From contig NZ_JACSQJ010000003.1 in the NCBI RefSeq assembly GCF_014836665.1, forward strand, positions 248,001-312,000: a DNA stretch of 64,000 nt. The letters run 5' to 3'. Numbering within the stretch: the stretch's first letter is position 1; every line of letters starts with the position of its first letter. The translations under genes and the position numbers were made by a program. The DNA comes from Luteimonas colneyensis. Lineage in GTDB: Bacteria > Pseudomonadota > Gammaproteobacteria > Xanthomonadales > Xanthomonadaceae. Shown here piece after piece: positions 10,083 through 12,450 of this stretch. A model generated the notes under the pieces. The model worked only from the letters and a program-made list of their open reading frames with translations, was not told where the DNA came from and did not search any database.

Positions 10083-11035
10083 GCCGCGGCCTCCAGCTTC
10101 TCGGCCACGCGCAGCACGGCGCTGCGCGCGCGCGGATTGCCGGCGACCTCGGCGGCTTCGGCGCGGATCGCGCCTCCGATCTCGCGCAGGCTCGGCACGA
10201 AGGGCGCGGCTTCGGGCAGGCGGCGGTTGCCCGCCGGCGGCTTCGCGTGCGCGGCGATGAAGCGCTTGGCGATGCGGTCTTCCAGCGAGTGGAAGCTGAT
10301 CACCGCCAGCCGGCCACCGGGACGCAGCGCGTCGTGCGCGGCCGCGAGCCCGGTCTCCAGGTCCGCCAGCTCCTGGTTGACGTGGATGCGGATGGCCTGG
10401 AACGAGCGCGTAGCGGGATGGATCTCGTGGCGGCCGGGCTTGGGCCGCGGCATCACCGAGGCGATCAGCTCGGCGAGCTGGCCGGTGCGCAGCAGCGGCG
10501 TGGCGGCGCGGCGCTCGACGATGGCGCGCGCGATGCGGCGGCTCATGCGCTCCTCGCCGTAGGTCCAGAGCACGTCGGCGATCTCGTCGGCCGAGGCGCG
10601 CGCCAGCCACTCGGCCGCGCTCTCGCCGGAGTCGGGATCCATGCGCATGTCGAGCGGGCCGTCACGACCGAAGCTGAAGCCGCGCTCGGCGACGTCGAGC
10701 TGGGGCGAGGACACGCCGAGGTCGAACAGCACGCCGTCGAGGCCCGTTGCGGCCGCCTCCCAATGGCCCAGGGCGGCGAAGCTGCCGCGGAAGATCGAGA
10801 CGCGCGGATCCGTGCCGAACTCGCGTTCGGCGACCGCGATGGCATCGGGATCCTTGTCCATCACCAGCAGCCGGCCTCCACTCCCCAGCGCCTGCAGCAC
10901 GCCGCGCGCATGGCCGCCACGGCCGAAGGTGCCATCCAGGTACGTCCCGTCCTCACGCACGCGCAGCCCTTCCATGACCTGCTTGAACAAGACCGGAAGG
11001 TGCGCGGAGCGGACATCCGCGGCACCCCCCGTCAC
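10079..11035 (-). CDS. rsmH: 16S rRNA (cytosine1402-N4)-methyltransferase
   Basis: RsmH (MraW) methylates N4 of C1402 in 16S rRNA; RsmI, encoded at 13.4 kb, makes the 2'-O-methylation of the same nucleotide. The 318-residue protein has the SAM-binding motif [29 protein letters not shown] and FHSLEDR near the C-terminus. The start is taken as GTG at 11035 because it overlaps the mraZ stop (GTGA) and gives the usual length; no ATG lies nearby in frame. Confidence 0.95.
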
Positions 11036-11478
11036 AGCTGCAGCCCGACCAGGTCGTCGCCGAGATCGTCGTCGCCCAGCGGCGTCTCGATCTGCGCGCG
11101 ATGTGCCTGCTCGCTCCAGAGTTCGAACCTGTCGCCCATGCCCAGCAGCACGGCCTTCTTCTCGATGCCAAGCGCGTTGCGCATGCTGGCCGGGATCGGG
11201 ATGCGGCCGTTGCCGTCGGGTTCGACGACCGATGCGGCGCCCACCAGCTTCAGCTGCATGGCGCGGTTGGTGGCCTTCAGGCGGGACAGCTTGTTGACGC
11301 TGTCGCGCACGCCTTCCCAGGTCGCATGCGGGTAGATCCAGAGTGCGCCGCGCTCGAACGGGTTGTAGGTGATGACCAGGCGGTTGCCGAAATCGGACGC
11401 GACGATCTCCCGGTAGCCGGTCGGAATCGCCAGCCGTCCCTTGTCGTCGATCGTGATGGCGGTCTCGCCCTGCAACAC
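11032..11478 (-). CDS. mraZ: Transcriptional regulator / cell division protein MraZ
   Basis: MraZ is the first gene of the dcw cluster and, in characterised bacteria, a ring-forming DNA-binding protein that regulates its own operon. The 148-residue product has two SpoVT-AbrB-like halves: [20 protein letters not shown] near the start and a second copy with [16 protein letters not shown]. The start is set at GTG 11478 (VLQGETA) because relatives begin at this point and a GGAG-type ribosome site lies about 12 nt upstream. An upstream in-frame extension to 11556 would start near the transcription start and is unlikely. Confidence 0.93.
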
Positions 11479-11524
11479 GTTTGCCTGCCCACTCCATGCC
11501 CGTCTGCGGCGGGCTTCATGCGCT

Positions 11525-11564
11525 GGAAAACCACGATATTCCCGGTCTTCCCACACGGCACCAC
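11525..11564 (-). promoter_or_regulatory. Candidate MraZ operator, four 10-bp repeats
   Basis: Reading the minus strand from 11564 there are four consecutive 10-base units: GTGGTGCCGT, GTGGGAAGAC, CGGGAATATC and GTGGTTTTCC. Each starts with a G-rich pentamer related to TGGGN, giving exact 10-bp spacing. In E. coli MraZ is known to bind TGGGN direct repeats spaced 10 bp upstream of mraZ. Here the array lies just past the -10 element and before the GTG start, the right place for autorepression. Binding itself is inferred. Confidence 0.6.
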
Positions 11565-11591: not shown

Positions 11592-11743
11592 CAGGTCCTG
11601 TGGGGAGTTTTCGCCAGTCCGGTCAATGACTTGCGGCGAACTTGAGAGACTTGTTCAAGCTTTATCCACAAGCTTATGATTCGTCTCAGATTGTGAGAAT
11701 CGTGACTTTCTTCACACCATTTTCATGTGGGGGCTTGCGGCAC

Positions 11744-11861
11744 AGCGGGGCGTGGTTGCCCTTGGGTGCGAATGTCCCCCGGCGGCCGATTTCCGCGGCC
11801 CTCCCCCACACCTCGGCCGCCTCCTCCTTGATTTCGCACCCAAGGGCAACCACGCCCCGCT
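11744..11861. repeat. Palindromic intergenic element, copy 1
   Basis: The left arm at 11745-11772 and right arm at 11833-11860 are perfect 28-base reverse complements, extended to 29 by an A-T pair at 11744/11861. They enclose a 60-nt interior. The interior begins TGTCCCCCGGCGGC and ends GGCCGCCTCCTCCTTGAT, and both blocks recur in copy 2. The arm contains GCCCTTG and ends GCGAA next to the interior. No coding function is apparent; short open frames across it are by-products of its GC content. Confidence 0.9.
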
Positions 11862-11957
11862 CCAAACGCCGCGGTGGGCTGGCAGAAAGAGCGTCGCGGC
11901 TGTGGGGACCAGCCTGAAGTCACGGTATGAACCCCGGACTGGGGGAGATGCAGCCTT

Positions 11958-12075
11958 GGCGTGGGCGGGAGGCCCTTGTGGCGAAATCAAGGAGGAGGCG
12001 GCCCGCCAAGGCCGGAATGGCGACGCCACCCATGCCGCCGGGGGACATTCGCCACAAGGGCCTCCCGCCCACGCC
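11958..12075. repeat. Palindromic intergenic element, copy 2 (inverted)
   Basis: Arms at 11958-11985 and 12048-12075 are perfect 28-base reverse complements around a 62-nt interior. Read on the minus strand, the interior starts and ends with the same 14- and 18-base blocks as copy 1, so the two elements face each other. Its arm sequence differs from copy 1 at many positions and by one indel, yet pairs perfectly with itself. It ends 18 bp from the 3' end of rnpB and could act as its transcription terminator, although it has no U tract. Confidence 0.9.
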
Positions 12076-12093
12076 GGGGCGGTCGGAGGAAGT

Positions 12094-12450
12094 GGCGGAG
12101 CCGGCCGGTAAGCCGGGTTCTGTCGTGGACAGTCATTCCTCTAGGCGCATCGTCACCGATACGCTCAAGCAACCTACCCGGACCCGACGCGGGCCGCGTC
12201 ATGAGGTCCCTATTTGGCCTTGCTCCCGGTGGGGTTTGCCGTGCCGGTCCGTTGCCGGACTCGCGGTGCGCTCTTACCGCACCGTTTCACCCTTGCCACG
12301 CGCTCCCGGAGGAGCCGTTCGGCGGTCTGCTCTCTGTTGCACTTTCCGTCGGCTCGCGCCGCCCAGGCGTTACCTGGCACCGTGCCCTGTGGAGCCCGGA
12401 CTTTCCTCGGCACTCCGAAGAGTGACGCGACTGTCTGGCCGGCTCCGCCG
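12094..12450 (-). ncRNA. rnpB: RNase P RNA (type A)
   Basis: RNase P RNA is the catalytic RNA that removes 5' leaders from tRNA precursors. On the minus strand the diagnostic sequences occur in order: GAGGAAAGTCCGGGCTCCAC, AGGGTGAAACGGTGCGGTAA, AGAGCGCACCG and, near the 3' end, ACAGAACCCGGCTTA. The outer helix P1 is visible as GGCGGAGCCGGCC at the 5' end pairing with GGCCGGCTCCGCC at the 3' end, which sets the boundaries to within a few bases. A -10-like GACAAT at 12461-12456 places the start near 12450. That promoter overlaps the 3' end of the upstream hydrolase gene. Confidence 0.96.

Follow-up and report, generated by a model that had tools for sequence, protein, structure and literature searches.

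A pair of facing palindromes beside rnpB in Luteimonas colneyensis belongs to a dispersed family of hairpins with a conserved internal loop

In Luteimonas colneyensis, two palindromes lie in the gap between rnpB and an mraZ-like open reading frame, within a window (the whole 64,000-nucleotide stretch of contig NZ_JACSQJ010000003.1 that was analysed) in which both of these genes are encoded on the minus strand. rnpB, the class A RNase P RNA, was found at 12093..12446 (RF00010, 313.7 bits), and the ORF list places the other gene at 11032..11556 (minus); from its sequence and the gene order we take it to be mraZ-like and to head a dcw-type cluster. Element 1 (11744..11861), whose sense strand is the minus strand, is a two-stem hairpin with a perfect outer stem of 29 bp. 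Inverted-repeat detection placed its arms at 11744..11772 (3′ on the sense strand) and 11833..11861 (5′ on the sense strand), 29 nt each, 100% complementary and with 60 nt between them. Its conserved blocks are found on the minus strand at 11821..11837 (sense GCGAAATCAAGGAGGAG) and 11768..11781 (sense CGGGGGACATTCGC), and enclose an inner hairpin (11782..11820, minus) that is longer than in most other copies. A spacer without assigned strand (11862..11952), which has diverged among relatives at the rnpB–mraZ locus, leads to element 2 (11953..12080), whose sense strand is the plus strand and whose end lies 12 nt past the 3′ end of rnpB. It is likewise a two-stem hairpin, with 33-nt arms (11953-11985 and 12048-12080) that are 94% paired around 62 nt, the inner 28 pairs (11958-11985/12048-12075) being perfect by eye, and its blocks are at 11981..11997 (sense GCGAAATCAAGGAGGAG) and 12039..12052 (sense CGGGGGACATTCGC) on the plus strand. 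The long inner hairpins of both elements are unusual; same-locus counterparts were seen in the genome G081 and, for element 1 only, in G003.

The two elements face each other and share blocks of 23 and 19 nt that are perfectly complementary between the copies, bearing out the preliminary description of two real palindromes with interiors of about 60 nt and interior blocks common to both. The RNA fold z-scores of the sense strands were -10.0 (element 1) and -8.6 (element 2) and those of the other strands -10.7 and -8.6, which excludes chance palindromes. With arms that are perfect or nearly so, both strands of these two elements fold about equally well and show no strand preference. At up to 2 mismatches, CTCCTCCTTNATTTCGC occurred twice against 0.02 occurrences expected, and the other block occurred twice against 1.55 expected, which is not rarer than chance. 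A covariance model matched element 1 at 11742-11863 on the minus strand (87.4 bits, E 1.2e-17) and element 2 at 11955-12078 on the plus strand (84.3 bits, E 6e-17). The word AAGGAGG was observed within the sense loop of both copies (11823-11829, minus, and 11989-11995, plus). Since we take this to be a strong Shine-Dalgarno-like word, the sense loop might bind the 3′ end of 16S rRNA.

Throughout, the sense strand was defined as the one reading AAGGAGGAG and then GGGGGACAT. The outer stem and the inner hairpin of the element are variable, and between them lies a conserved, purine-rich internal loop in which sense AAGGAGGAG stands opposite GGGGGACAT. In sense order this gives a variable 5′ arm, GCGAA, A-T-x-AAGGAGGA, the variable inner hairpin, GGGGGACA, TTCGC and a variable 3′ arm, together about 104-128 nt. 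The alignment rows behind this order were picked by the conserved blocks, which are therefore invariant by construction; the arms were not used. Variant cores are present in the genomes G013 and G029.

Both blocks were found in at least 118 stretches of a public genome collection, mainly from the Lysobacteraceae and the Comamonadaceae/Burkholderiales, with record titles that include Luteimonas, Lysobacter, Thermomonas, Stenotrophomonas and Pseudoxanthomonas as well as Variovorax, Ramlibacter, Hydrogenophaga, Rhodoferax, Polaromonas and one Stagnimonas MAG. The distribution is patchy among congeners, 18 of 52 being positive by the covariance model (E ≤1e-3) with 3 to at least 76 matches per genome, although some of these copy numbers may count weak opposite-strand shadows of strong matches. 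Two of the congeners (G022 and G066, Luteimonas abyssi) have identical element coordinates. The L. colneyensis genome itself has four elements, namely the dimer and two weaker singles on other contigs (C2:12155-12258 and C10:76318-76423). These, and the many copies in relatives, are the further copies that the preliminary description had proposed to look for, and they speak against its refuting option of an assembly chimera. At E ≤1e-6 and with the best 10 candidates per genome considered, the class as a whole gave matches in 4 of 369 genomes, namely this one, two more of the same family and one from elsewhere.

The family also appears to lack a name, as had been surmised. At the gathering score, Rfam 15 matched only rnpB in the window region, all others being far below, and gave no match in five further element loci. 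In the literature searched we found no published description of the blocks and no REP, BIME or RNA-motif account of them in these taxa; the searched terms were absent from the portions consulted of Di Nocera 2013 (PMC3733652) and RepRanger (PMC12306157), and the REP literature compared also included portions of Nunvar 2010 (PMC2817692). The family is thus apparently large and unnamed. No phage matched, either among viral contigs (exact pattern) or phage records, and plasmid matches were limited to three Variovorax replicons of more than 1 Mb and one weak Burkholderia match; when the window's own dimer was compared with plasmids, only a chance-like piece matched. A second palindromic repeat, with the core GCCGGCCATCCATGGCCGGC inside longer inverted arms, was also seen in this genome. 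Its exact core occurs four times on C10 and C2 of this genome (G000), in the loci L009 (1348-1367, 1751-1770 and 2024-2043) and L005 (1816-1835), of which L333 and L337 are overlapping stretches, and is absent from the window.

What the preliminary description did not notice is that the two elements form a dimer of a standard kind, whose relative orientation hardly varies. The covariance model found 187 primary elements in 108 loci, and among neighbours less than 300 nt apart 72 of 74 were sense-divergent; in 59 of the 72 the arms are 37-66 nt apart. This count covers 108 of 118 loci; of the ten omitted, L093 alone would add two divergent and two other neighbours. A looser motif search that included overlapping stretches gave 107 of 120 sense-divergent. 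Units are therefore found singly or, if adjacent, nearly always as sense-divergent dimers.

Gene orientation around the elements was taken from a crude ad hoc ORF caller, with 27 element clusters inside called ORFs omitted, and on this basis gaps that contain an element are less frequently divergent (7 of 80, compared with 53 of 176 control gaps, p 1e-4) and more frequently convergent (26 of 80, compared with 31 of 176, p 0.01). A single element in a tandem gap mostly lies antisense to its neighbouring genes (17 against 5, p 0.017), a tendency repeated with other gap limits (17 against 6) and in a coarser set (12 against 6). Since tandem-gap singles tend to be antisense, a simple 3′-UTR role is disfavoured. 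The units aligned from three genomes (G029, G036 and G084) have no U-run following their sense 3′ arm such as an intrinsic terminator would have. The idea that the spacers are coding was rejected, the long spacers compared sharing only the element ends (one of the six stretches was largely N). The neighbouring genes are ordinary and include no transposase in the best 25 of the 142 families matched when 102 of 267 called neighbour proteins were scanned.

The preliminary description had proposed that matched changes on the two arms preserve pairing, and this is upheld across the family. Among 40 elements of equal length, 87.3% of cells are paired and 34 of 41 pairs have two-sided changes against 29.4 when shuffled (1 of 500), with 382 two-sided cells against 125.1 (0 of 500). 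The covariation score of these 40 rows was 0.610, compared with 0.173 for shuffled rows and at most 0.139 for slid registers. The covariance model was built on 37 of the 40 (361 two-sided cells against 114.3 shuffled, score 0.634), leaving out L060, L074 and L134, all from one Variovorax MAG and two of them with partly mismatched arms. The partial mismatches lie in the outer stems of the elements at 591-694 of L060 and 6191-6294 of L074; in the latter the arms apparently come from different element types, and both elements look like the result of recombination across cores or of misassembly. When arms were swapped among 165 copies, the mean pairing score fell from 39.5 to 12.3.

These 165 elements, selected by sequence motif alone, were also used to tabulate wobbles. 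Stem columns 4-23, a range picked after seeing the table, contain 334 A.C-type and 42 G.T mismatches on the non-sense strand, the A.C-type cells being G.T as seen from the sense strand. The bias is absent from the outer end of the stem (columns 24-30, 74 A.C-type against 90 G.T on the non-sense strand). Read on the sense strand, G.T to A.C was 136:12 for plus elements and 146:11 for minus elements. Collapsing the arms to 62 clusters gave 98:18, and to 29 clusters 43:10. Over most of the stem the wobble ratio is thus 8-12 to 1, or 4-5 to 1 once related arms are collapsed. The sense strand is kept foldable better than the other. This suggests that one particular strand of each element is kept able to fold, and supports a putative folded single strand of fixed polarity. 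Since dimers point both ways, strand effects of replication or transcription are unlikely to be the cause of the bias.

Change in place could be followed in 17 orthologue-like pairs drawn from 237 distinct elements, one of which (L173/L179) comes from a single genome and is a pair of paralogues. In the 16 orthologue pairs, 93 of 991 arm sites had changed compared with 363 of 1542 sites in the immediate flanks (p 1e-20), a rate 0.4 times that of the flanks, and the arms were slower in 14 of the 16, with two ties at zero. More distant DNA, largely coding, had changed at a rate similar to that of the arms (891 of 8770), so that constraint is clear only against the adjacent non-coding DNA. In the pairing register, the 17 pairs contained 15 two-sided changes that were still paired and 29 one-sided changes kept by wobble. 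The changes that did not keep pairing comprised 3 A.C breaks and 22 others or, split otherwise, 13 one-sided breaks and 12 others. Four slid registers taken together, with four times as many pairs, gave 3 two-sided and 43 wobble-kept changes. Gene conversion between copies could mimic some of the two-sided changes. The conserved blocks changed at 3 of 304 sites in orthologues, a rate biased by the elements having been picked by those blocks. Between two Variovorax paradoxus replicons the arms are identical while 12 of 51 sites have changed in the spacer-side flank. At the rnpB locus itself, rnpB was matched in 50 genomes, of which 30 could be compared; mraZ-like ORF DNA matched in the same stretch as rnpB in 25 of these 30 loci and the element motif was absent from 26. 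Since most rnpB loci lack the element, and since element 2 has lost its 5′ half at the orthologous locus in G003, no copy can be essential.

Near-identical copies at different sites indicate that the elements have spread. In G013, 16 dimers have a common repeated unit of about 300-420 bp in mostly different surroundings, although two pairs of units have a common flank, so that the flanks are not all independent. Several units of the G013 dimers (loci L283-L299) run, by eye, from GGTTCATCTCCCAACT to its near inverse, in or beside T-tracts, and some have T-runs on either side. In three other genomes the units stop at the arms or close to them and lie in different flanks: six single units in G029, four dimers in G084 and three dimers among six loci in G036. 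A search for the enzyme responsible led to two candidates that were rejected. When elements were found with a strict pattern, Y1/RAYT genes were present in 9 of 9 congeners with the element and 14 of 28 without it, an association that was gone with the covariance model (13 of 18 with the element, 20 of 34 without), so that the TnpA-REP-like partner suggested earlier was not borne out. Reverse transcriptase genes were found in 3 of 18 congeners with the element and 12 of 34 without.

It is possible, though in our judgement not probable, that the elements are REP-like in the strict sense, the folded DNA strand being the substrate of a single-strand transposase, the wobble bias arising from the transposition intermediate and the copies having no host function. 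Tolerance of G.T could also come from the folding of single-stranded DNA, and the strand-specific folding, the multiple copies, the inverted dimers, the near-identical copies at different sites and the ordinary neighbouring genes would all fit. Against this, a cognate Y1 gene was not found: none of the 16 Y1 loci (15 distinct) had the element motif beside the gene, and several Y1 flanks carry other repeats. Y1 genes in L182, L185, L192 and L195 are flanked by short repeats of the GGGGTCAGGTTCA, GGGACGGAGGTAGTTAA or TGACTCTGACACCG type, which resemble TIRYT ends, and a Stenotrophomonas Y1 gene (L193) by REPs of the GTAGTGCCGGCC type. Five genomes that have elements, including the three richest, gave no Y1 match (G013, G029, G036, G079 and G080), although the G079 assembly is 73% complete and the transposase may have been lost. 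Compensation in place at orthologous loci would also be unexpected for inert copies.

Movement as a MITE, with a DDE transposase acting on terminal inverted repeats and the hairpins as cargo, is improbable. In G013, where several units have GGTTCATCTCCCAACT and near-inverse ends in T-tracts, terminal inverted repeats and a target-site duplication are possible, which would suit it. The aligned units of G029, G036 and G084, however, stop at the arms or close to them and show no such ends. All six G029 copies consist of one hairpin each, and no transposase is among the best 25 families matched by the neighbour proteins scanned. The GGTTCATCTCCCAACT ends of G013 may instead represent a separate MITE frame carrying hairpins. 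Least probable is a DNA cruciform, or a site for a protein of the gyrase or IHF type between genes as proposed for BIMEs, which the long perfect palindromes, their enrichment in convergent gaps and their depletion from divergent gaps would favour. Since a cruciform uses both strands, it does not fit wobbles that are tolerated mainly on one, whichever way the element is oriented. Among the structured RNA, cruciform and mobile hairpin offered by the preliminary description, it is the cruciform that is disfavoured, while a dispersed and apparently mobile hairpin stands.

Our tentative preference, to which we would give a little under half of our belief, is that the two palindromes represent one dimer from a dispersed family of extragenic palindromes of the Lysobacteraceae and Comamonadaceae/Burkholderiales, a family that has been or still is mobile and that acts as an RNA hairpin in the handling of read-through. 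From the maintenance of copies in place we infer that the folded strand would be RNA, made by transcription past a gene end or returning antisense. A transcript entering from either side of a dimer would contain the antisense copy first and the sense copy second, so that a dimer would supply one sense hairpin in each direction. A host RNA-binding factor or nuclease could then read the conserved internal loop and stop or process the read-through before the next gene. The likeliest role would be to handle, via the conserved loop, RNA that is antisense or arises by read-through at the ends of genes. The copies may have been spread by an enzyme supplied in trans, which need not be a resident Y1 transposase. 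A more far-reaching proposal, which we hold to be doubtful, is that the family represents a class of RNA elements of mobile origin in which each copy is maintained by selection, sense-divergent dimers serve as two-way insulators at gene ends, with exactly one sense hairpin arising from transcription on either side, a host factor common to the Lysobacteraceae and Comamonadaceae reads the conserved purine loop, and no known single-strand transposase is needed for the spread.

It has long been asked why bacteria retain extragenic palindromes, and this family gives a handle on the question. Since wobble and compensatory changes are seen in place between orthologous copies, the function of individual copies can be tested by deletion, and the presence of the family in two distant bacterial families permits independent tests. 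The abundance of the palindromes is decoupled from a resident RAYT, the copy-richest congeners being without a detected one, and this prompts one to ask what moves them.

Among known systems, integron attC sites have a variable stem that is recognised as a folded single strand, but they carry other conserved boxes and stand in cassette arrays, whereas the copies described here are scattered. The ERIC, NEMIS, YPAL and Rickettsia palindromic elements are intergenic palindromes of about 100-170 bp, some of them thought to act as RNA. They are alike in size and location, but their arm sequence is more constant within a family, unlike the variable arms seen here, and we know of no sequence that they have in common with the element. 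According to the portion consulted of PMC6006769, the ends of the TIRYT group read GGGG[AT][CG]A[CG]. The element motif GGGGACA resembles this consensus but is located within the hairpin, and none of the Y1 genes examined had it alongside. The closest resemblance in behaviour is to REP/BIME sequences and their RAYTs, which are also dispersed, extragenic and palindromic, often occur as inverted doublets and have arms that vary yet stay paired. Two defining features of these are lacking: the GT(A/G)G head is absent from the conserved columns of the element, with none conserved at the unit ends by eye, and no cognate Y1 gene was found. The element further differs in its strand-specific wobble and in its size and build, having more than 100 nt, two stems and a conserved internal loop compared with the 20-40 bp of a REP. 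It is probably best seen as a REP/BIME-like dispersed element of new architecture that would function as an RNA hairpin beyond gene ends.
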